The notes under the pieces are model-generated. The model made no database searches and was not told the origin of the DNA. It saw nothing but the letters and a program-made list of their open reading frames with translations. Shown one piece after another: positions 24,507-35,882 of a stretch of 64,000 nt of DNA. The DNA is from Pseudodesulfovibrio cashew (lineage in GTDB: Bacteria; Desulfobacterota; Desulfovibrionia; Desulfovibrionales; Desulfovibrionaceae): NCBI RefSeq assembly GCF_009762795.1, contig NZ_CP046400.1:2085501-2149500 (forward strand). The letters run 5' to 3'. How positions within the stretch are numbered: the first letter of the stretch is position 1; the number at the start of each line of letters is the position of its first letter. A program made the translations under genes and the position numbers.

Positions 24507-24575
24507 CTACATACACTTTTGTAGGCTACAACAACATTGTGGCCTGTTCGCGTAGTAACCTACAATTGTGTAGGT
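24507..24575. promoter_or_regulatory. Cluster of CTACA/TGTAG half-sites between nifV and nifH
   Basis: Five perfect CTACA/TGTAG half-sites plus one CGTAG fall within 68 bp of AT-rich DNA. They include the perfect 18-bp inverted repeat ACCTACA-N4-TGTAGGT (24558-24575), CTACA-N8-TGTAG (24507-24524) and the 11-bp palindrome TGTAGGCTACA (24520-24530). The cluster centre (24541) is equidistant from the two divergent -24/-12 promoters, placing sites about 95-165 bp upstream of both starts, where enhancer proteins bind. No exact NifA site (TGT-N10-ACA) was found here. Confidence 0.6.
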
Positions 24576-24609
24576 AAATATTTTTCATTTTGTTTCCAAA
24601 ATAATATAG

Positions 24610-25533
<924 letters not shown>

Positions 25534-25581
25534 TCGGCAAATCAATTACCAATAAACCAAGCAAGATAGGAGATAGGAAAA

Positions 25582-25935
25582 ATGATGATCATGGTTCGAG
25601 CGATTGTACGGCCCGAGAAAGCGGACGACGTTTTGGCCGCCCTGATGGACAACGGCTTTCCCGCCGTCACCAAGTACTCCGTGGCCGGTCGCGGCAAGCA
25701 GCGCGGCATCAAGATCGGTGAGGTCACTTACGATGAAATCCCCAAGACCATGCTCATGAGCGTCGTCAACGCAGCCGACAAGGACTTCGTCATCGCCACC
25801 ATCATGGACGCTGCCCGCTCCGGCACCAAGGGTGCTTTCGGCGACGGCAAGATCTTCGTCACTGAAGTCGAAGACGTCTACACCATCAGCTCCGGCGTCA
25901 AGGAAACCGCCGCAGCCAGCGAGGAGGCCGCGTAA
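25582..25935 (+). CDS. nifI1: Nitrogenase-specific PII protein NifI1
   Basis: A 117-residue GlnB-family protein (MMIMVRAIVRPEKADDV...). Its place between nifH and nifD identifies it as NifI1 rather than a general PII. With NifI2 it forms a complex that, in methanogens, inhibits nitrogenase post-translationally when ammonium is present and is relieved by 2-oxoglutarate and ATP. Its stop overlaps the nifI2 ATG. The ribosome-binding site is TAGGAGATAGG. Confidence 0.93.
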   Translation: MMIMVRAIVRPEKADDVLAALMDNGFPAVTKYSVAGRGKQRGIKIGEVTYDEIPKTMLMSVVNAADKDFVIATIMDAARSGTKGAFGDGKIFVTEVEDVYTISSGVKETAAASEEAA

Positions 25936-26309
25936 TGAAGGAAGTCATCGCAGTTGTGCGCATGAACATGATGAACCAGACCAAGGCCGCTTTGACCAAG
26001 GCAGGCGTCGACGCCTTCTTCGTCCACGAAGCACAGGGCCGAGGCAAGGGGTTCGTCAATGCCGCAGTCGTCGAAGGCGCGGAGTCCGGCTACGAAGAAG
26101 CCGCCTCGGTCCTCGGTGAAAAAGGCAAGCTCTATCCCAAGCGCATGGTTACCGTCGTTGTCCCCAGCGACATGGTCGAGGACGTGGTGGAAGCCATCAC
26201 CGAAGTCAACCAGACCGGCAAGCCCGGCGACGGCAAGATTTTTGTCCTCCCCATAGGTGACGCTGTCCGCGTCAGAACCTCTGAAACCGGTGAAAAGGCC
26301 ATCGCCTAG
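25935..26309 (+). CDS. nifI2: Nitrogenase-specific PII protein NifI2
   Basis: A 124-residue PII paralogue with a characteristic longer T-loop region (FVHEAQGRGKGFVNAAVVEGAESGYEEA). It is partner of NifI1 in ammonium switch-off of nitrogenase and overlaps it by one base (TAATG). It carries the conserved GDGKIFVLPIGDAVRVRT C-terminal segment of PII proteins. Presence of both genes implies direct post-translational control in this organism. Confidence 0.93.
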   Translation: MKEVIAVVRMNMMNQTKAALTKAGVDAFFVHEAQGRGKGFVNAAVVEGAESGYEEAASVLGEKGKLYPKRMVTVVVPSDMVEDVVEAITEVNQTGKPGDGKIFVLPIGDAVRVRTSETGEKAIA

Positions 26310-26334
26310 GCCGTCGAAGAAGGAGAGAAAATAC

Positions 26335-27972
26335 ATGGCCAAGACGAAAAAGGTTGTGCAGTTCATGCCCACCGATATCAAGGAAGAGCTTCTCGCGAAG
26401 TATCCTCCGAAGGTGGCGAGAAAGCGCGCCAAGCAGATAATGATCAACGAAGCCACGGAAAGCGAGGCGCCGCCGGAAATTCTGGCCAACGTCCGCACCA
26501 TCCCCGGCATCATCACCATGCGCGGTTGCACCTACGCGGGCTGCAAGGGCGTTATCATGGGCCCCACCCGCGACATCGTGAACATCACCCACGGCCCCAT
26601 CGGCTGCGGATTCTACTCCTGGCTTACCCGCCGCAACCAGACCGACGCCGGCGAAGACGGTGAGAACTACATGCCCTACTGTTTCTCCACGGACATGCAG
26701 GACTCCGACATCATCTTCGGCGGTGAGAAGAAGCTCGCGGCCGCCATCCAGGAAGCCTACGACCTCTTCCACCCCAAGGGCATCTGCGTCTTCGCAACCT
26801 GCCCGGTGGGTCTCATCGGTGATGACATTCACGCCGTGTGCAAGAAGAAAAAGGCCGAGTTCGGCGACTGCAACGTCTTCGCCTTCTCCTGTGAAGGCTA
26901 CAAGGGCGTGTCCCAGTCCGCCGGTCACCACATCGCCAACAACCAGGTCTTCACCCACCTCGTGGGCGAAAACACCGAGCCCCGCACTGAGGAATACAAG
27001 ATCAACCTCCTCGGCGAGTACAACATCGGCGGTGACGGTTTCGAGATCGACCGCATCCTCAAGAAGTGCGGCATCACCAACCTCGCCACCTTCTCCGGCA
27101 ACTCCTCTTACGATCAGTTCGCCTCCGCCCAGCACGCCGACCTGAGCTGCGTCATGTGCCACCGTTCCATCAACTACGTGGCCGACATGCTCGAGACCAA
27201 GTACGGCATCCCGTGGATCAAGGTGAACTTCATCGGCGCCGCTTCCACCGCCAAGTCCCTGCGCAAGATCGGCCAGTACTTCGGCGACAAGAAGCTCATC
27301 GACCGCATCGAGGAAGTCATCGCCGAGGAAATGCCGGAAGTTGAGGCTGTTGCCGCCGACGTGCGTCCGCGCACCGAAGGCAAGACCGCCATGCTGTTCG
27401 TCGGTGGTTCCCGCGCTCACCACTATCAGGACCTCTTCTCCGAAATGGGCATGAAGACCCTGTCCGCCGGTTACGAGTTCGCTCACCGCGACGACTACGA
27501 AGGCCGCCAGGTCATCCCGAACCTGACCGTCGACGCCGACTCCCGCAACATTGAGGAAATCGATGTCGAGGCCGATCCGGAACTCTACTCCCCGCGCAAG
27601 AAGCCCGAGGAGATCAAGGCCCTGGAAGACGCCGGTTACCAGTTCAAGCACTACGAGGGCATGAACGACCAGATGGACAAGGGCACCATCATCATCGATG
27701 ACCTCAACCAGTACGAGGCCGAGAAGCTGGTGGAACTGCTCAAGCCGGACATCTTCTGCGCCGGTATCAAGGAGAAGTTCTCCATCCAGAAGTCCGGCGT
27801 TCCCATGAAGCAGCTGCACAGCTACGACTCCGGCGGCCCCTATGCCGGGTTCAAGGGCGCGATCAACTTCTACAAGGAAATCGACCGCCTCGTGAACTCC
27901 AAGGTGTGGTCCTACATGAAGGCCCCCTGGCAGGAAAACCCCGAACTGACCGGCACGTTCGTGTGGGAATAA
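26335..27972 (+). CDS. nifD: Nitrogenase MoFe protein alpha chain NifD
   Basis: A 545-residue catalytic subunit. P-cluster cysteines are seen in MRGCTYAGCKGV, GPIGCGFYSW and TCPVGLIGDD. FeMo-co ligands are the Cys in LSCVMCHRSINY (the HRSIN context corresponds to Cys275 of Azotobacter) and the His in QLHSYDSGGPYAGFKG (His442). An insertion around residues 400-430, relative to Azotobacter NifD, is typical of the anaerobe cluster-III enzymes. No anfG/vnfG gene is adjacent, so this is a molybdenum nitrogenase. The start follows AAGGAGAG. Confidence 0.97.
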   Translation: MAKTKKVVQFMPTDIKEELLAKYPPKVARKRAKQIMINEATESEAPPEILANVRTIPGIITMRGCTYAGCKGVIMGPTRDIVNITHGPIGCGFYSWLTRRNQTDAGEDGENYMPYCFSTDMQDSDIIFGGEKKLAAAIQEAYDLFHPKGICVFATCPVGLIGDDIHAVCKKKKAEFGDCNVFAFSCEGYKGVSQSAGHHIANNQVFTHLVGENTEPRTEEYKINLLGEYNIGGDGFEIDRILKKCGITNLATFSGNSSYDQFASAQHADLSCVMCHRSINYVADMLETKYGIPWIKVNFIGAASTAKSLRKIGQYFGDKKLIDRIEEVIAEEMPEVEAVAADVRPRTEGKTAMLFVGGSRAHHYQDLFSEMGMKTLSAGYEFAHRDDYEGRQVIPNLTVDADSRNIEEIDVEADPELYSPRKKPEEIKALEDAGYQFKHYEGMNDQMDKGTIIIDDLNQYEAEKLVELLKPDIFCAGIKEKFSIQKSGVPMKQLHSYDSGGPYAGFKGAINFYKEIDRLVNSKVWSYMKAPWQENPELTGTFVWE

Positions 27973-27991
27973 ACTAGGGAGATATAAGATA

Positions 27992-29365
27992 ATGTTACTC
28001 AGACATACCCCCACTGAAGTCAAGGAGCGCAAGGCGCTCATGATCAACCCGGCCAAGACGTGCCAGCCCATCGGCGCCATGTACGCGGCCCTCGGTATCC
28101 ACGGATGCCTGCCGCACTCCCACGGCTCCCAGGGCTGCTGCGCCTACCACCGGTCCGCGCTGACCCGCCACTACAAGGAGCCCATCTCCGCGGCGACCAG
28201 CTCGTTCACTGAAGGCGCTTCCGTCTTCGGCGGCCAGGCCAACCTGCTGCAGGCCATCAACAACATCTTCACGGTCTACGACCCGGAAGTGATCGCCGTG
28301 CACACCACCTGCCTGTCCGAGACCATCGGCGACGATCTGCCCCAGATCTTCGACAAGGCCATCAAGACCGGCAAGGTGCCCGAGGGCAAGACCGTTCTCG
28401 GTTGCCCCACTCCGAGCTACGTCGGCTCCCACGTCACCGGGTTCTCCAACATGGTCAAGGCCATGGCCCAGCTGGCCGAGCCCTCCGGCAAGAAGTCCGG
28501 CAAGGTCAACGTCATCCCCGGTTGGGTCGAGCCCTGCGACATGGCCGAGATCAAGCGCCTGGCCGGACTGGTCGGCGTGGACATCACCCTGTTCCCGGAC
28601 ACCTCCGGCGTCCTCGACGCCCCCCTGACCGGCGAATACAAGATGTTCCCCGACGGCGGCGTGACCATTCCGGAGCTCAAGGCCTGCGGCGACGCCGTCG
28701 GCACCCTGGCCCTCGGTGAATGGTGTTCCGCCGACGCAGCCCGCTGGCTCGACTCCAAGTGCAAGGTACCTTGCTCCGTCCTGGACATGCCCTTCGGTCT
28801 CGCTGCCACCGACCGCTTCATCGACGTGCTGCGCACCGTGGCCGGTGTCTCCGTGCCCGACTCGGTCGCCGTCGAACGCGGCCAGCTCGTGGACATGATC
28901 TCCGACATGCACCAGTACTTCTACGGCAAGCGCGTGGCCCTCTACGGCGATCCGGACCAGCTCATCTCCATGGTCGAGTTCCTGCTCACCCTGGACATGA
29001 TCCCCGCCTACGTCGTCACCGGCACCCCGGGCAAGAAGTTCGAGCGCCGCATCAAGGAGCTGTGCGCGGACAAGCCCTTCGAGGTGAAGGTCAAGGCCAA
29101 GGGCGACATGTTCCTGATGCACCAGTGGATCAAGAACGAGCCTGTGGACCTGCTTATCGGCAATACTTACGGCAAGTACATCTCCCGCGACGAGGACATC
29201 CCGCTTCTGCGGTGGGGCTTCCCCATCCTTGATCGCCAGGGTCATCAGTACTTCCCGACAGTTGGCTACAAGGGCGGCCTCCGGTTGCTCGAAAAGATGT
29301 TGACGCTGTTCCTCGATCGCAAGGACCGCGACGATTCTGAACAGACTTTCGAGCTCGTCCTGTAG
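27992..29365 (+). CDS. nifK: Nitrogenase MoFe protein beta chain NifK
   Basis: A 457-residue beta subunit forming the alpha2-beta2 tetramer with NifD. P-cluster cysteines appear in NPAKTCQPIGA, GIHGCLPHSHGSQGCCAYHRS and TTCLSETIGDD. It lacks the about 50-residue N-terminal extension of Azotobacter NifK, as in other cluster-III proteins. It lies 19 bp downstream of nifD with a GGGAGATATAAG ribosome-binding site. A strong hairpin follows its stop. Confidence 0.97.
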   Translation: MLLRHTPTEVKERKALMINPAKTCQPIGAMYAALGIHGCLPHSHGSQGCCAYHRSALTRHYKEPISAATSSFTEGASVFGGQANLLQAINNIFTVYDPEVIAVHTTCLSETIGDDLPQIFDKAIKTGKVPEGKTVLGCPTPSYVGSHVTGFSNMVKAMAQLAEPSGKKSGKVNVIPGWVEPCDMAEIKRLAGLVGVDITLFPDTSGVLDAPLTGEYKMFPDGGVTIPELKACGDAVGTLALGEWCSADAARWLDSKCKVPCSVLDMPFGLAATDRFIDVLRTVAGVSVPDSVAVERGQLVDMISDMHQYFYGKRVALYGDPDQLISMVEFLLTLDMIPAYVVTGTPGKKFERRIKELCADKPFEVKVKAKGDMFLMHQWIKNEPVDLLIGNTYGKYISRDEDIPLLRWGFPILDRQGHQYFPTVGYKGGLRLLEKMLTLFLDRKDRDDSEQTFELVL

Positions 29366-29374
29366 TTACCCCTC

Positions 29375-29409
29375 CCCCGGGGTGGAGACCTTCCCCCTCC
29401 ATCCCGGGG
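29375..29409 (+). other. Intercistronic hairpin after nifK
   Basis: A 13-bp stem with one G-U pair: CCCCGGGGTGGAG (29375-29387) pairs with CTCCATCCCGGGG (29397-29409) around a 9-nt loop. No T-tract follows and the operon continues. It is more likely an mRNA-stabilising or partial-attenuation element that raises nifHDK over the downstream assembly genes. Confidence 0.7.
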
Positions 29410-29438
29410 TCAACCTCAACCCTAGAAGGCAGCCATCC

Positions 29439-30614
29439 ATGACTACCCCTCTTTCCGAATACGCCTCGCATCCCTGCTTCGGGATGGCTTCCCGTCAGAC
29501 CGTGGGCAGGCTGCATCTGCCCGTGGCTCCTCGCGCCAACGCCATGATTCGGTTCGGCAACGGCAAGGCCCAGTCCGAGCCTGCCATGATGCCCGAGGAG
29601 GCTGTCGGCTGGATGGAACAGACCCTGGGGGAAGGCGTCGAAGTGGGCATTGTGGGCATCTCCGGCCCCGGCGACCCCATGGCCGTGCCCGAGCCGACCA
29701 TCCGCACGCTGCGCATGGTGCGCGACAAGCACCCCGATATTTCCCTGTGCCTGACCACCATCGGTCTGGGCGCCGATCTTTACGCTCCCGAGCTGGCCGA
29801 ACTGGGCGTGTCCCATGTCACCCTGCTGGTTGACGCCGTCACCCCGGCCGTGGCCGAGACGCTCTACGCCTGGATTCGTCCCGGCAGGAAGACCGTGCCT
29901 CTGGGCGACTCCGCCAAGGTGCTCGTCGAGGAACAGGCCAAAGCTGTGGCCGCGTTCAAGCAGGCCGGCATCACCGTCAAGATCAACACCACCGTCTACC
30001 CCGGCTACAACGCCGATCATGTGGAGGATATCGCCTCCGCCATGGCCGGGCTGGGCGCCGACATCATGGCCGTTGTGCCTTACTGGCCCGGCGAAGATGA
30101 GGATGAATTTCCCGCCAAGCCCGACATGGAGCTGCTCGCCGAGGTTCGCGACAAGGCCGCCCGGCACATCAGCCTCATGCCCGCCTGGGAAGAGTGCGGC
30201 GAAGGTTTGGTCGGTCGCAAGACGCCCGACGCGAAGGAGGCCGCGACCATGGCCCTGCCCAAGCCGACCAAGGACCGCCCCAATGTTGCCGCGGTCAGCT
30301 CCAACGGCATGGACGTCGACCTGCACTTGGGCCACGCCGTCAAGATTCTCGTCTACGGCCCCCGCGAGGACGGGCTCAACTGCCTGCTGGAGACGCGCGA
30401 GGCCCCTGAACCCGGTTCCGGCTCCTCCCGCTGGGAAACGCTGGCGGAGCTGCTGTCCGACTGCTTTGTCCTGCTGACGGCCAGCGCGGGCCAGAATCCC
30501 CGTGAAATTTTGAGCCGCAGTGGTCTGAACGTAATGATCACCGACGGCGAGATATCCTCTACCGTGGACGTCCTCTACGGTGGCGGCAGGAAAGGCAAAA
30601 AGTGCAAGAAGTAG
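29439..30614 (+). CDS. NifB-like protein lacking the radical-SAM cysteines, with NifX-like C-terminus
   Basis: A 391-residue paralogue of NifB. It aligns with the genuine NifB of this operon over its length: HPCF near the start, GRLHLPVAP, GISGPGDP (the SAM-binding GGE-like loop of NifB), ELGVSHVTLLVDAV, GITVKINTTVYPGYNADHVEDI, and a C-terminal NifX/NafY-like domain (AAVSSNGMDVDLHLGHAVKILVY). The CX3CX2C motif of NifB (CNIQCNYC) is replaced by ANAMIRFG, so no radical-SAM 4Fe4S cluster can form in the normal way. It is intact, well translated-looking and in frame, so probably a functional non-catalytic homologue, for example a scaffold or carrier for a cofactor precursor. That role is inference. 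The start ATG at 29439 has an AGAAGG about 11 bp upstream. Confidence 0.85.
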   Translation: MTTPLSEYASHPCFGMASRQTVGRLHLPVAPRANAMIRFGNGKAQSEPAMMPEEAVGWMEQTLGEGVEVGIVGISGPGDPMAVPEPTIRTLRMVRDKHPDISLCLTTIGLGADLYAPELAELGVSHVTLLVDAVTPAVAETLYAWIRPGRKTVPLGDSAKVLVEEQAKAVAAFKQAGITVKINTTVYPGYNADHVEDIASAMAGLGADIMAVVPYWPGEDEDEFPAKPDMELLAEVRDKAARHISLMPAWEECGEGLVGRKTPDAKEAATMALPKPTKDRPNVAAVSSNGMDVDLHLGHAVKILVYGPREDGLNCLLETREAPEPGSGSSRWETLAELLSDCFVLLTASAGQNPREILSRSGLNVMITDGEISSTVDVLYGGGRKGKKCKK

Positions 30615-30644
30615 AGCAACAAATCACAAGAGGAGAACGAGACA

Positions 30645-30944
30645 ATGGCTACACCCGGTAAAATGATCATCTGCTGTCAGTCCTTCCGCGCCGCGGGAGA
30701 TCCCAAGGGCATCTGTCACAAGCAGACCGACGGCTTTCTGCAGTACATCGAGGAAGAAATTCTGGATCGCGGTCTGGACGCACTGGTCGTGGCCACCACC
30801 TGCCTGAAGCAGTGTGAGAGCGGCCCCATCATGGTTATCCAGCCCGATAACTACTGGTACAAGGGCGTGGATTCCGAAGAAGCCATCGACGAGATTCTGG
30901 ACGCCCTGGAAGAAGGCGAACAGTGCGCGGATTACGCGCTCTAG
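30645..30944 (+). CDS. Thioredoxin-like 2Fe-2S ferredoxin
   Basis: A 99-residue acidic protein of the thioredoxin-fold 2Fe2S ferredoxin family (Clostridium pasteurianum / Shethna-like). Cysteines are in IICCQSFRA, KGICHKQT and TTCLKQCESGP, followed by the conserved IMVIQPDNYWYKGV. Homologues occur in nif clusters and bind the MoFe protein or protect nitrogenase from oxygen. It lies 30 bp behind the NifB-like gene with AAGAGGAGAACGAG upstream. Electron donation or protective complex formation are the likely roles. Confidence 0.87.
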   Translation: MATPGKMIICCQSFRAAGDPKGICHKQTDGFLQYIEEEILDRGLDALVVATTCLKQCESGPIMVIQPDNYWYKGVDSEEAIDEILDALEEGEQCADYAL

Positions 30945-31353
30945 AGAGTTGAGAGAGTCCGATGCCTGATGCCGTCGTCACCCGCCTCGCCTCGCACGCG
31001 GACCCTGCCGGTCCCGCAGGACCTTCCTTAGTGGAAGGGCACCTGAGCGGTCCGGAAATGCTGAACAATGGTCGGGGACGCCTCCTGGCCGCCAGCGGGA
31101 TCGCAATCGGCGTGTGCGTGGAGCGGTTGACGATGTTTACGGCAAAAGGCGGTCCCGCCGTTCTCGCCGAGGGCGGTAACGCCCGGAAAGGGCGGCGGGA
31201 CCAGGGCATTGGAATGGGAATACGGCTTGCCGCCGGGAGCGCCGTGAGGGTGGCGCATCCCCATGCGGACCCAGCCCGGGGGACGGCCCGGGAACATTGT
31301 TCGAGAAACCTGCATTAACCGGCTAACGCTTCCAACTCATCAGGGGAAGAAAA
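30945..31353 (+). ncRNA. Structured, apparently non-coding region between ferredoxin gene and nifE
   Basis: About 400 bp inside the otherwise compact nif operon. A perfect 10-bp stem GGTCCCGCCG/CGGCGGGACC (31151-31160, 31193-31202) encloses a second hairpin GGGCG-GTAA-CGCCC (31171-31184) with a GNRA tetraloop. Further small hairpins are CCTTCC-TTAGT-GGAAGG, CCTGC-N7-GCAGG and CGCAT-CCCC-ATGCG. A 118-codon frame (30962-31318) exists, but it has lower GC3 than neighbouring genes and no recognisable protein feature. It may be a leader, an mRNA-stability element or a small RNA. Confidence 0.45.
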
Positions 31354-32739
31354 ATGAGTACGACCATACTTGAAGAAAGAAAGGATCAGATCCACCGGAC
31401 CGGCGAAGGCGCCATCGACATCGCCTGCAACCGCGAGTCCCTGGCGGGCGCGGTCAGCCAGAGGGCCTGTGTCTTCTGCGGCTCCCGCGTGGTCCTGTAT
31501 CCCATCGCCGACGCCCTGCACCTGGTGCACGGCCCCATCGGCTGCGCCGTCTACACCTGGGACATCCGGGGCTCGCTCTCCAGCGGACCGGAAATCCACA
31601 GGCTCTCCTTTTCCACCGACCTCCAGGAGACCGACGTCATCTTCGGCGGCGAGAAGAAGCTCGAAGCCGCGTTGGACGAGCTCATCGACCGGCACGATCC
31701 CGAGGCGGCATTCGTCTACTCCACCTGCATCGTGGGCCTGATCGGCGACGACCTGGAGGCCGTCTGCCGCAAGATGTCCGAGAAGAAGGGTATCCCGGTG
31801 CTGCCGGTCATGTCCGAAGGATTCAAGGGCAGCAAGCGGGCCGGCTACGAGGCCGCGTGCAACGCCATGTTCCGTCTGATCGGCACGGGCTCCACTGAAG
31901 ACATTTCTCCTGTTTCCGTCAACATCTTCGGTGACTTCAACCTCGCCGGAGAGATCTGGATCATCCGCGAGTATTTCGAGAAGATGGGCGTTCAGGTCGT
32001 GGCCAACGTCACTGGCGATGGCCGCGTCAACGACATCGCTCGTTGTCACGGCGCAGGTCTGAACCTGGTCCAGTGCTCCGGCGCCACCCTGCATCTCGCC
32101 CAGCTGATGGAAGACAAGTTCGGCATTCCCTTCGAGCGGGTCTCCTACCTCGGCATCGAGGACATGGCCGACTCCCTGTACAAGGTCGCCGACTTCTTCA
32201 AGGACAAGGACCCGGGCATCGTGGAGCGGACCCAGAAGCTGGTCAAGGAGGAGCTGGAAAAGCTCATCCCGGAGCTGGCCCGGTACCGCCGCGACCTGGA
32301 AGGCAAGAAGGTCGCCATGTACGTGGGCGGTTCGTTCAAGGCTTTCTCCCTGGTCAAGGCTTTTCGTCACCTCGGCATGCAGGTCGTCCTGGTCGGCTCC
32401 CAGACCGGCACCAAGGAAGACTACGCCGAGCTGGCCCAGATCACCGATCCCGGCACGGTCATCATCGACGACGCCAACCCTCTGGAACTCTCCCACTTCA
32501 TCAAGGAGTTGGACGTGGACGTGTTCGTGGGCGGGGTCAAGGAACGGCCCATCGCCTTCAAGCTCGGCGTGGGATTCTGCGACCACAACCATGAGCGCAA
32601 GGAGGCCCTGGAAGGCTTCAAGGGCATGCTCAACTTCGCCCGCGAGATCCATTCCTCGGCCATGTCCCCGGTCTGGCAGTTCGCGCCCCGCCGCGCGAGC
32701 CGCATCGCCGCAGCCAAGAAGGAGGCCGTCAATGAGTAA
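31354..32739 (+). CDS. nifE: FeMo-cofactor scaffold NifE
   Basis: A 461-residue homologue of NifD that with NifN forms the scaffold on which the NifB-derived cluster matures to FeMo-co. Conserved cysteines are in QRACVFCGSRVV, GPIGCAVYTWD and STCIVGLIGDD. The C-terminal His expected in NifD-like FeMo-co sites is absent as usual. Its end overlaps nifN by 8 bp (ATGAGTAA). The start follows GGGGAAG after the 400-bp structured region. Confidence 0.95.
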   Translation: MSTTILEERKDQIHRTGEGAIDIACNRESLAGAVSQRACVFCGSRVVLYPIADALHLVHGPIGCAVYTWDIRGSLSSGPEIHRLSFSTDLQETDVIFGGEKKLEAALDELIDRHDPEAAFVYSTCIVGLIGDDLEAVCRKMSEKKGIPVLPVMSEGFKGSKRAGYEAACNAMFRLIGTGSTEDISPVSVNIFGDFNLAGEIWIIREYFEKMGVQVVANVTGDGRVNDIARCHGAGLNLVQCSGATLHLAQLMEDKFGIPFERVSYLGIEDMADSLYKVADFFKDKDPGIVERTQKLVKEELEKLIPELARYRRDLEGKKVAMYVGGSFKAFSLVKAFRHLGMQVVLVGSQTGTKEDYAELAQITDPGTVIIDDANPLELSHFIKELDVDVFVGGVKERPIAFKLGVGFCDHNHERKEALEGFKGMLNFAREIHSSAMSPVWQFAPRRASRIAAAKKEAVNE

Positions 32740-34108
32740 CAAGACCAAGACCACCGCACGTCCGAATTACGTTTCGACCACCAACGCCTGCAAGCTGTGT
32801 ACGCCGCTGGGCGCCTCCCTGGCCTTCCGCGGCGTGGAGGGAGCCATTCCGTTCCTGCACGGCTCCCAGGGCTGCGCAACCTACATGCGCCGCTACATCA
32901 TCTCGCATTTCCGCGAGCCTGTGGACATCGCCTCTTCTGCTCTGGGTGAAAAGAACGCCATTTACGGCGGCGGCCCGAACCTGAAGAAGGGCATCCTCAA
33001 TGTCATGAAGAAGTACGAGCCGGCTCTCGTGGGCGTGGCCACCACCTGCCTGACCGAGACCATCGGCGACGACGTCCCCATGAACATCAAGGAGTTCCGC
33101 GCGGAATTCGGCGAGGACCTCGACCTGCCCGAGCTGGTGCAGGTGTCCACCCCCAGCTACAACGGCACCCACACCGACGGCTGGCACGGCGCGGTCCGCT
33201 CCCTGGTCGAGCAGCTCTGCACCACCAAGGCGGACGCCGCCCATCGGGTGAATATCCTGCCCAACATGATTTCCTGTGAGGACGTCCGGCACCTGAAGGA
33301 CATCTGCCGCGACTTCGGCATCGATGCCACCATCCTGCCCGACATCTCTGAGACCCTGGATGGCCCGTCCCTGGAAGACTACGTCAAGATTCCCTCCGGC
33401 GGCACGCCTATCGAGGGCATCAAGACCATGTCCGGCTCCAAGGGAACCATCGAATTCGGCCGATGCCTGCCCAAGGAAACGGGCGGCTCGTCCCTGGAAG
33501 CCGCTTTCGGTGTGAAGAACCACCGCATCGGCCTGCCCATGGGGCTGAGGGAATCCGACCGGCTCTTCGAGGCCCTGGAAGATATCTCCGGCACCCCCAT
33601 GCCCCGGCGCTACGAGCTGGAGCGGGGTCGCCTGGTGGACGCCTACGTGGACGGCCACAAGTACATTTTCGGCAAGCGCGCAGTGGTTTACGGCGAGGAG
33701 GACCTCGTTGTCGGCCTGTGCGCCTTCCTGGCCGAGATCGGCGTGGACGTGGTCCTGGCCGGCACCGGCGCGCGCAACAAGGGGCTGGATGAAGCTATCG
33801 CCGCCGTTACCAACGGCGTTGCCCGCATTGCTCCGGAAGTGCGCGAGGGCGTGGACTTCCATGACATCGCGGCCGAGGCCGAGACCCTGGCACCGGACAT
33901 CCTCATCGGCCACTCCAAGGGTTACCGCTACGCAAAGGCGTGGGGCGTGCCGCTCGTTCGCGTCGGTTTCCCCATCCACGACCGCTTCGGCGGCCAGCGC
34001 ACCCGGCACATCGGGTACGGCGGAACGCTGAACCTGTTCGACCGCGTGGTCAACGCCTTTATCGAAAAGAAGCAGGCCGATTCCTCCATCGGCTACGGAT
34101 ACATCTAG
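32732..34108 (+). CDS. nifN: FeMo-cofactor scaffold NifN
   Basis: A 458-residue NifK-like scaffold subunit. TTNACKLCTPLGASLAFRGVEGA and LHGSQGCATYMRRYI carry the cluster-ligand cysteines, followed by TTCLTETIGDDV. The ATG at 32732 lies within the end of nifE and is preceded by GAAGGAGG, so the two subunits of the NifEN complex are translationally coupled. The longer upstream reading frame is only overlap with nifE. Confidence 0.95.
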   Translation: MSNKTKTTARPNYVSTTNACKLCTPLGASLAFRGVEGAIPFLHGSQGCATYMRRYIISHFREPVDIASSALGEKNAIYGGGPNLKKGILNVMKKYEPALVGVATTCLTETIGDDVPMNIKEFRAEFGEDLDLPELVQVSTPSYNGTHTDGWHGAVRSLVEQLCTTKADAAHRVNILPNMISCEDVRHLKDICRDFGIDATILPDISETLDGPSLEDYVKIPSGGTPIEGIKTMSGSKGTIEFGRCLPKETGGSSLEAAFGVKNHRIGLPMGLRESDRLFEALEDISGTPMPRRYELERGRLVDAYVDGHKYIFGKRAVVYGEEDLVVGLCAFLAEIGVDVVLAGTGARNKGLDEAIAAVTNGVARIAPEVREGVDFHDIAAEAETLAPDILIGHSKGYRYAKAWGVPLVRVGFPIHDRFGGQRTRHIGYGGTLNLFDRVVNAFIEKKQADSSIGYGYI

Positions 34109-34149
34109 GATTCAACTCGACGCTGAGACGAAAGATAAGGAGAGCAGTC

Positions 34150-35424
34150 ATGACCAAGAAGGATACCACCAAGCACCCCTGTTTCAACAAGGCGGAAGCC
34201 GGTTCCTGTGGCCGCGTACACCTGCCGGTGGCGCCCAAGTGCAACATCCAGTGCAACTACTGCAACCGCAAGTACGACTGCGTGAACGAATCCCGGCCCG
34301 GCGTGACCAGCGGCGTTCTCAAGCCGTTCCAGGCCGCCGAGTACATGGACAAGGTCCTTGAGAAGGAGCCTCGCATCACCGTGGCAGGCATCGCCGGTCC
34401 CGGCGATCCCTTTGCCAACCCGGCCGAGACGCTGGAAACCATGCGCCTGCTTAACAAGAAGCACCCCCATCTCCTGTTCTGTCTGTCCAGCAACGGCATG
34501 GGCATCCTGCCCTACCTGGACGACATCGCCGAGCTGGGCGTGTCTCACGTGACCATCACCATCTCTGCCGTGGATCCCAAGATCGGCGCCAAGATCTACT
34601 CCTGGGTCAAGGACGGCAAGGTCGTCTACCGGGGCGAGCAGGGTGCCAAGATTCTCCTGGAGCGCCAGTTGGCCGCCATCAAGGGCCTCAAGGAGCGGGG
34701 CATCACGGTCAAGATCAATTCCATCGTCATCCCCGGCATCAACGACGACCACATCGTCGAGGTCGCCAAGGTCTGCTCCGAGCTGGGCGCGGACATTCAG
34801 AACATGATCCCGCTCAAGCCGACGCAGGACACACCCTTTGCCGAGCTGCCCGAGCCCGGCAGGGAGACCGTGCTGCCTCTGCGCAAGGAAGCGGGCGAAT
34901 ACATCGAGCAGATGACCCACTGCAAGCGTTGCCGCGCCGATGCGGTCGGCCTGCTGAGCGACGACCAGTCCGTGGCCCTGTGCGGGACCCTCCAGGCGTG
35001 CTCCAAGCTCAAGCCTCTGGAAGTCGAGATGGCCAAGCCTTACGTGGCCGTGGCCACCCGTGAGGGCATGCTCGTCAACCAGCATCTGGGCGAGGCCAAG
35101 TCCTTCCAGATCTGGGGCGAGGCCGAGACCGGCGGCTTCCGCATGGTCGAGGAGCGGCCCGCACCGCAGGCCGGTTGCGGTCCCCAGCGCTGGTCCGAAC
35201 TGGCCAAGACCCTGCATGACTGTCGCGCCGTGCTCTGCGCGGCCATGGGCGAGACTCCCAAGATGCTGCTCGAAGAGCACGGCATCCAGGGACACGTGGT
35301 GGACGGCTTCATCGAGGATGCACTCCGGTTCGTCTTCGAGGGTGGCGACATCAACGCGCTCAAGGTTCGCAGGAGCGGCATCGGTTCCGCTGGTTGCGCC
35401 GGTGGCGGCGGGGGATGTGGCTAG
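34150..35424 (+). CDS. nifB: FeMo-cofactor biosynthesis radical-SAM enzyme NifB
   Basis: A 424-residue enzyme that fuses two 4Fe4S clusters and inserts carbide to make NifB-co. The radical-SAM motif CNIQCNYC is intact (residues about 36-43), preceded by HPCFNKAEAGSCGRVHLPVAPK whose additional His/Cys bind the K-clusters; GIAGPGDP follows. A C-terminal NifX-like domain (about 300-410) and a Gly/Cys-rich tail complete it. It is last of the nif operon, with a terminator after it. Ribosome-binding site AAGGAGAG. Confidence 0.97.
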   Translation: MTKKDTTKHPCFNKAEAGSCGRVHLPVAPKCNIQCNYCNRKYDCVNESRPGVTSGVLKPFQAAEYMDKVLEKEPRITVAGIAGPGDPFANPAETLETMRLLNKKHPHLLFCLSSNGMGILPYLDDIAELGVSHVTITISAVDPKIGAKIYSWVKDGKVVYRGEQGAKILLERQLAAIKGLKERGITVKINSIVIPGINDDHIVEVAKVCSELGADIQNMIPLKPTQDTPFAELPEPGRETVLPLRKEAGEYIEQMTHCKRCRADAVGLLSDDQSVALCGTLQACSKLKPLEVEMAKPYVAVATREGMLVNQHLGEAKSFQIWGEAETGGFRMVEERPAPQAGCGPQRWSELAKTLHDCRAVLCAAMGETPKMLLEEHGIQGHVVDGFIEDALRFVFEGGDINALKVRRSGIGSAGCAGGGGGCG

Positions 35425-35451
35425 ATCGAATTGCCGAATAACTGAGAACAG

Positions 35452-35500
35452 GTCAAACCCGGAGCGTATGTTTCAGTGCGTGCGGGTTTGACTTTTTTTT
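35452..35500 (+). terminator. Terminator of the nifH-nifB operon
   Basis: A 10-bp stem GTCAAACCCG/CGGGTTTGAC (35452-35461, 35483-35492) with a 21-nt loop, followed by eight T residues. Confidence 0.9.
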
Positions 35501-35576: not shown

Positions 35577-35822
35577 ATGAACAAGGCTACGTTGGAAAAA
35601 GTGTTCGAGTACGCATCCAAGCCGGTGCAGGGGACCATGTCCCGCAAACTGCGCAAGGACATCAAGATTCAGGTCAACGAAGGTGAAGTGTACGCGGACG
35701 CCACCCTGTTCCTCGGTGAGGAATTCGTCCGCGTCACCTGTGTGGCGGACGGCGCTTCCGTCAATACCTACTATGACTGGGAAAGGATCGCCTCTGTGCG
35801 GACCATCGGCCCCGTTGAATAG
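35577..35822 (+). CDS. Small hypothetical protein downstream of nifB
   Basis: An 81-residue soluble, mixed-charge protein (MNKATLEKVFEYASKPVQG...) without membrane segment or cysteine cluster apart from a single Cys. It begins after the nif operon terminator with ribosome-binding site CGGAGAAG and is followed by its own terminator, so it is probably a separate transcript. I do not recognise the family. The GC-rich codon use is normal for the region, supporting a real gene. Confidence 0.6.
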   Translation: MNKATLEKVFEYASKPVQGTMSRKLRKDIKIQVNEGEVYADATLFLGEEFVRVTCVADGASVNTYYDWERIASVRTIGPVE

Positions 35823-35846: not shown

Positions 35847-35882
35847 GAGGCCCGCATCGATGTTCGATGCGGGCCTCTTTTT
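35847..35882. terminator. Bidirectional terminator, first of a near-identical pair
   Basis: A 14-bp stem GAGGCCCGCATCGA/TCGATGCGGGCCTC (35847-35860, 35864-35877) followed by five T residues. It serves the 81-residue gene on the plus strand and probably the 77-residue gene on the minus strand. Confidence 0.88.

Follow-up and report, generated by a model that had tools for sequence, protein, structure and literature searches.

A NifB-derived protein lacking the radical-SAM cysteines, encoded directly after nifK in Desulfovibrionaceae, is a candidate nitrogenase-cofactor chaperone

Why would a nif operon that already encodes NifB carry, directly 3′ of nifK, a second nifB-like gene whose product lacks the cysteines of the radical S-adenosylmethionine (SAM) cluster? 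This question is raised by a 64,000-nucleotide stretch of the Pseudodesulfovibrio cashew genome (contig NZ_CP046400.1, positions 2,085,501 to 2,149,500; hereafter the window, to which all coordinates refer). The gene lies on the forward strand at 29439..30614, with its ATG at 29439 and its stop codon ending at 30614, and encodes a protein of 391 residues (P0001). We refer to a NifB-paralogue gene in this place as the slot gene, and to the operon's own NifB as P0002. The answer that we favor, by a modest balance of the evidence, is that the slot gene encodes a NifB-derived nitrogenase-cofactor metallochaperone of the NafY/NifX type, with a dead barrel as its docking domain. Five observations resting directly on data underlie this answer: the ligands required for catalysis are gone, the gene is under purifying selection, constraint has shifted to the NifX-like domain, one histidine never varies, and the link to nifK is fixed.

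P0001 aligned with P0002 at 35% identity over 393 columns (BLASTP, E 5e-83), and these two were the only NifB matches in the host genome, a single contig of 3.9 Mb with an estimated completeness of 100%. The N-terminal domain of P0001 is a NifB barrel, and a full-length fold search returned barrels only; its Pfam radical-SAM match starts only at profile position 51, and its score against the NCBIfam nifB model TIGR01290 was 171.5 bits, below the cut-off of 343.65. The earlier note on this DNA, made from the letters alone, had described an intact NifB paralogue between nifK and a ferredoxin gene, of normal codon use and free of decay. This description was confirmed by the open reading frame (ORF) and the alignment, by a third-position GC content of 0.83 (0.86-0.90 in nifD, nifK, nifE, nifN, and nifB; 0.72-0.77 in nifH, nifV, and the ferredoxin gene), by open frames in relatives, and by ratios of nonsynonymous to synonymous substitution (dN/dS) of at most 0.41.

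The ligands of the NifB clusters were compared between 84 full-length slot proteins (P0001 excluded, and the partial L173 and L177 dropped) and 73 NifB chosen by best hit and length. The CX3CX2C motif is lost from P0001, as the earlier note had stated, with A33, I37, and G40 at the radical-SAM cysteine positions (29535..29558; window coordinates written with two dots are on the forward strand), and the cysteine triad was found in 4 of the 84 slot proteins versus all 73 NifB. According to the part of PMC9692996 available to us, the K-cluster ligands of Methanothermobacter NifB (7BI7) are C18, H31, C115, C260, and C263. P0001 keeps four of the five, namely C13 of the HPCF motif (29475..29477), H26 (29514..29516), and C104 (29748..29750), aligned with C18, H31, and C115, as well as C253 at the position of C263, while W250 replaces C260 (both within 30186..30197). 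Across the slot proteins, these sites hold the ligand residue in 55 (C18), 50 (H31), 42 (C115), 5 (C260), and 61 (C263) of 84 cases; the four of P0001 occur together in 32, all five in none, and all eight NifB cluster ligands in 0/84 versus 73/73 NifB, in which every ligand site is filled. The loop with RKYDC...E of NifB (C62/E65 in the Methanotrix enzyme) is also missing from P0001. Ligands of the Methanosarcina enzyme were assigned partly otherwise in the accessible text of PMC7145814, including a loop cysteine, and this cysteine is likewise missing from P0001.

Other NifB motifs were compared as well. The HPCF and GISGPGDP motifs, which the earlier note had pointed out, are both present in P0001, with HPC retained in 34/84 slot proteins and 73/73 NifB. 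ExRP, AGPG, and Cx2CRxDAxG are absent from P0001 and present in P0002, and were found in 12, 16, and 2 of the 84 slot proteins, respectively; TxTxN is absent from both P0001 and P0002 and was found in 2/84 slot proteins and 44/73 NifB. The earlier note had also listed the cysteine of 'GSCGR' as lost, but this loss carries no meaning, as the residue is not a NifB cluster ligand and the solved chains read DRVGR (7bi7) and HAFGR (6y1x) at this site. The slot proteins have lost the full set of cluster ligands on which catalysis depends, which argues against synthesis of the NifB cofactor (NifB-co).

The routes by which the ligands were lost differ. The four triad-keeping slot proteins group in a single clade and are of two sorts: those of G015 and G055 retain H31, C260, and C263 and have lost C18, C115, and the loop glutamate, while those of G010 and G051 (L184 and L180) keep the radical-SAM cysteines and the NifX-domain histidine and have lost all five K ligands. 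The G010 and G051 proteins might, from their residues, still bind SAM. On a quick tree the radical-SAM triad changed once and the four K-cluster ligands 7 to 9 times each. The enzyme was thus disabled by more than one path, with the cofactor histidine unchanged throughout. A conserved barrel pocket with fixed substitutions, as the earlier note had envisaged, is therefore not general: the four K ligands survive in only 32/84 barrels, and the ligand counts over the 84 proteins do not uphold such a pocket as the defining feature of the family.

Two features are fixed in the slot family: the NifX-like domain, which carries the cofactor histidine, and the position directly behind nifK. A basic tail is nearly so. 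The NifX-like (Nitro_FeMo-Co) domain of P0001 spans approximately residues 281-383 (30279..30587; Pfam PF02579, 34.5 bits, cut-off 26.3). Within it, H296 (30324..30326) aligns with H35 of NifX and H121 of NafY, and a histidine was found here in 84/84 slot proteins. Only two of the five other PF02579 proteins in the host genome have it (by eye), so the presence of this domain does not by itself imply the histidine. NifY and NafX have the NifX fold without the cofactor histidine, as described in the consulted portion of PMC13128457, and a NifY-type placeholder was rejected for the slot proteins on the strength of their invariant histidine. The C-terminal LYGGGRKGKKCKK tail (30573..30611) is basic: the mean net charge of the last 15 residues was +4.35 in the 84 slot proteins (82 positive) versus +0.21 in the 73 NifB.

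Selection was examined with 14 close pairs, in which dN/dS ranged from 0.08 to 0.41 for the slot gene and from 0.03 to 0.32 for NifB (15 pairs were tried; L119/L121 gave no slot value as the slot copies were labelled NifB, and L080/L082 is near saturation). The slot gene is under purifying selection. Over the 1830 pairs of the 61 loci with both genes, mean identity of the slot proteins was 45.8% in the barrel and 58.0% in the NifX-like domain, compared with 68.8% and 61.8% in NifB; the better-conserved domain is thus switched, from the barrel in NifB to the NifX-like domain in the slot proteins.

Among 199 genomes of the family, 125 had a NifB-like match of some kind and 64 had the slot gene directly 3′ of nifK (G000, the 53 loci L071-L123, and 10 further loci). 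It also follows nifK in 23 loci outside the family or unplaced: L032-L039, from a contig scan that reached close relatives (Desulfobulbaceae, Desulfocapsaceae, and unplaced metagenome-assembled genomes), and L124-L138, from a phylum search of 395 genomes in which the place after nifK was read in 15 slot-like-scoring genomes outside the family and a few others. This coverage comprises the Desulfobacterota plus the one contig scan, and the phylum search may miss divergent slot genes. The non-catalytic form is accordingly conserved beside nifK in Desulfovibrionaceae, the point that the earlier note had wanted checked, and beyond them. The ferredoxin gene follows the slot gene in each slot locus of the main reading set except L039, where the contig ends, and nifK, the slot gene, and the ferredoxin gene stay together in several loci where nifE-nifN-nifB sit elsewhere. 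One genome of the same genus, G178, had neither a slot match nor a nifK match. The slot family is real, conserved, and broader than the window alone could show, and would be a variant of the NifX/NafY type with a NifB pseudoenzyme as its frame.

How such a protein might work is suggested by comparison with known carriers; here cofactor binding, the partner, and the direction of transfer are what we infer. The C-terminal domain would bind NifB-co or the iron-molybdenum cofactor (FeMo-co) through H296, as NifX does with H35 and NafY with H121, while the barrel, which would no longer make the carbide, may have taken on a docking or targeting role like that of the sterile-alpha-motif domain in NafY. 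The slot protein would then hold apo-NifDK and deliver the cofactor, finished or half-finished. We think service to the NifDK side more likely than the step from NifB to NifEN because of the place after nifK, a profile score nearer to NafY, and a basic tail unsuited to the positive site on NifE. In other diazotrophs, nifY follows nifK and nifT.

The likeness to NafY, the FeMo-co chaperone of Azotobacter, which available descriptions present as a targeting domain with a tethered cofactor domain, lies in this architecture and in the aligned H121; the N-terminal domain is a sterile alpha motif there and a NifB barrel in the slot protein, and structural alignment gave approximately 20% identity. 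NafY was the best PDB match of the slot C-domain profile. With NifX, the NifB-co carrier, the slot C-domain shares the fold and the histidine aligned with H35, but NifX is small, and section 7 of PMC13128457 has its tail binding to a positively charged patch of NifE, while the slot tail is basic. The slot C-domain was unmatched by the nifX model TIGR02663 (cut-off 112 bits) at E 0.1. From NifB as defined by TIGR01290, P0001 differs in its missing CX3CX2C, ExRP, AGPG, and Cx2CRxDAxG motifs, sub-cut-off score, operon place, and basic tail. No description of the slot family was found in a literature search that mostly excluded subscription papers. A 2017 survey (PMC5715403, in the part open to us) excluded 28% of putative NifB, mostly for a missing CX3CX2C; all of these contained a NifX domain and were regarded as probably mis-named NifX. 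By description, these sequences resemble the slot proteins. The Paenibacillus NifB3 and NifB4 in the available text of PMC8287671 are extra, non-essential NifB copies, as the slot gene is an extra copy; in two strains, however, NifB3 has neither Cx2CRxDAxG nor the NifX domain, opposite to the slot protein, and is described as perhaps a pseudogene.

Several results weigh against a dedicated cofactor chaperone. The NifX-domain histidine is equally present in 73/73 NifB. The margin of NafY over NifX in the profile search was just 6 bits, and the two tied in structural score for the modelled slot C-domain, which was modelled alone since the full-length fold search had returned barrels only; its models were uneven, with a predicted local distance difference test of 78 at best and 53-64 in the other four. 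In 13 of the 14 close pairs, the dN/dS of the slot gene exceeded that of NifB. In addition, at least 20 nif-bearing genomes of the family run from nifK straight to the ferredoxin gene: 19 of 30 further loci that were read after nifK (10 have the slot gene, and L176 reaches a contig end) and G088, the only one read among at least 12 other nifK places. Two Nitratidesulfovibrio vulgaris plasmids have the same direct order, from which D. vulgaris Hildenborough would likewise be without the slot gene, and the nif cluster of that strain supports growth on N2 (PMC10102598, as far as its accessible text goes). Given these nif-bearing relatives, nitrogen fixation as such does not require the slot gene, and its function is either dispensable or covered by NifB's own NifX-like domain, which may fill the role in genomes without the slot gene. 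The earlier note had named absent or frameshifted homologues in related nif operons as grounds against its reading; the gene is absent in at least 20 cases, and the 84 full-length relatives have open frames.

The slot gene could also be a replacement of a missing nifX; as the entire explanation this was rejected, since none of 60 family genomes had nifX above cut-off, slot gene present or not (28 taken as without and 32 with the slot gene, although G010, G043, G051, and G090 among the 28 do carry it), in a scan whose control genomes likewise gave no match above cut-off. The host genome similarly had no TIGR02663 match above cut-off, the controls again giving no positive. As a separate observation, L160 (G106:C28) has a nifX-like gene, at a sub-cut-off 93.6 bits, directly 3′ of a second nifK-like gene (57% identity), which perhaps belongs to another nitrogenase set.

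Pseudoenzymes often regulate their parent enzyme, and the slot protein could be a regulator or assembly partner of NifB whose dead barrel pairs with NifB, or competes for Fe-S donors or NifEN, and so meters cofactor synthesis. The presence of canonical NifB in the same locus in 61/61 matched loci is consistent with this, yet it is the NifX-like domain, and not the barrel, to which constraint has shifted, and where nifE-nifN-nifB are elsewhere the slot gene stays beside nifK and the ferredoxin gene instead of accompanying nifB; we consider this explanation unlikely, if the strongest of the competitors. A K-cluster scaffold, in which the barrel would hold a 4Fe-4S pair or an 8Fe cluster by the remaining ligands and feed or store it for NifB, seems to us less likely again. 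It accounts for the retention of four of the five 7BI7 ligands in P0001 and 32/84 slot proteins, but no protein keeps all five, 52/84 are without the four, each ligand changed 7 to 9 times on the quick tree, four proteins keep the SAM cysteines yet lost K ligands, and the pocket is still less complete under the assignment in the seen part of PMC7145814.

That the gene is only a leftover duplicate on which selection has relaxed, or an artefact of sequencing, we regard as very improbable. The elevated dN/dS relative to NifB would fit a relic, as would the lack of the gene in 20 or more of the family's nif operons; against this stand dN/dS values that do not exceed 0.41, open frames in full-length relatives from several families, a single clade with full support (100/100), a fixed place, and invariant residues in the NifX-like domain. 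A decaying copy was rejected on conservation, dN/dS, and ligand counts among relatives, and a sequencing error on the finding that 84/84 full-length relatives likewise have no complete ligand set and all have open frames. Of the earlier note's interpretation, a non-catalytic NifB conserved beside nifK under purifying selection is supported, and a cofactor carrier or chaperone remains the best reading; the conserved barrel pocket is not supported in general. A bolder extension of the chaperone reading, which we offer as speculation and hold to be about as doubtful as the scaffold, is a two-site metallochaperone: the emptied K-cluster chamber, with four of five ligands in the P0001 lineage, would still take an 8Fe cluster, which would move first to the tethered NifX-like domain and from there to apo-NifDK, and the ferredoxin encoded next door would take part in this transfer. 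The G010/G051 form would then represent another outcome of that duplication, with its own chemistry.

The origin of the slot gene was addressed with a careful tree of 78 proteins, for which three proteobacterial NifB served as the root. The 37 slot proteins in it all fell into one clade (100/100), which splits into proteins with (100/100) and without (99/90) the radical-SAM triad, and its sister was the NifB of G232, G473, and G575 (99/94). The outside NifB of this tree were required to have HPC, GPG, and CX3CX2C and are uninformative on motif loss; four short 'B' pieces and the duplicate L145 were dropped before tree building, and the other trees were quick ones with long branches. In G473, G575, and G232 (L203, L204, and L205) the canonical nifB lies directly 5′ of a 2Fe-2S ferredoxin gene, which suggests, although the branch is long, that the slot gene arose from a nifB paired with a ferredoxin gene and later placed behind nifK. 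On a quick tree the slot genes of G132 (L104) and G096 (L106) group with other families and their NifB with their own, which points to exchange of the slot gene by itself; the careful tree shows the same for both slot genes and for the NifB of G132. In L203 and L204, a separate nifN is missing and the nifE match falls within one ORF of approximately 2.7 kb, as if nifE and nifN were fused.

The gene order around the slot gene is nifV (reverse strand), nifH, nifI1, nifI2, nifD, nifK, slot gene, 2Fe-2S ferredoxin gene, nifE, nifN, nifB, and an 80-residue ORF, where nifI1 and nifI2 are PII proteins by Pfam and named by place. The slot gene is separated by 73 bp from nifK (27992..29365; TIGR01286 above cut-off) and by 30 bp from the gene of the 2Fe-2S thioredoxin-like ferredoxin (30645..30944; NF041612, 50.7 bits, below its cut-off of 150); the canonical nifB is at 34150..35424 (TIGR01290, 385 bits). 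An exact sigma-54 consensus match lies upstream of nifH (24643..24657), while matches with one mismatch numbered 3 in the window versus 5.57 expected by chance. No sigma-70 promoter-like site was found on the forward strand inside the operon, nor a terminator-like site on that strand at 24575-35465, the latter being weak evidence since 10 such sites were found versus a shuffle mean of 9.2; the strongest terminator-like site is a hairpin 3′ of the 80-residue ORF (35847..35877). The slot gene appears to belong to the nif operon. The 80-residue ORF (35580-35822) had no Pfam or NCBIfam match and is conserved in several relatives. Elsewhere, nifI1 and nifI2 matches are in swapped order in L097, L109, and L118; the N. 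vulgaris DP4 plasmid (L041, 11871-13154) carries, immediately beyond its nif cluster, a gene annotated as the antiviral reverse transcriptase drt2; and on the RCH1 plasmid (L040, 8200-13500) the nifB match is in two pieces, the gene table, which omits pseudogenes, holding only the C-terminal nifB part and no nifE.

It is still an open question how the nitrogenase cofactor passes from one scaffold to another, and the carriers considered here, NifX and NafY, come from Azotobacter. A NifB that has given up catalysis and would keep its grip on the cofactor points to the maturase itself as a possible evolutionary source of carriers. The slot proteins also provide a natural separation-of-function series for dissecting NifB, with forms that keep the SAM cysteines and have lost the K ligands, and the reverse. 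Furthermore, the number of nifB genes overestimates that of maturases in these sulfate reducers, and those who assemble nif sets for engineering have one more part to consider in the slot gene.
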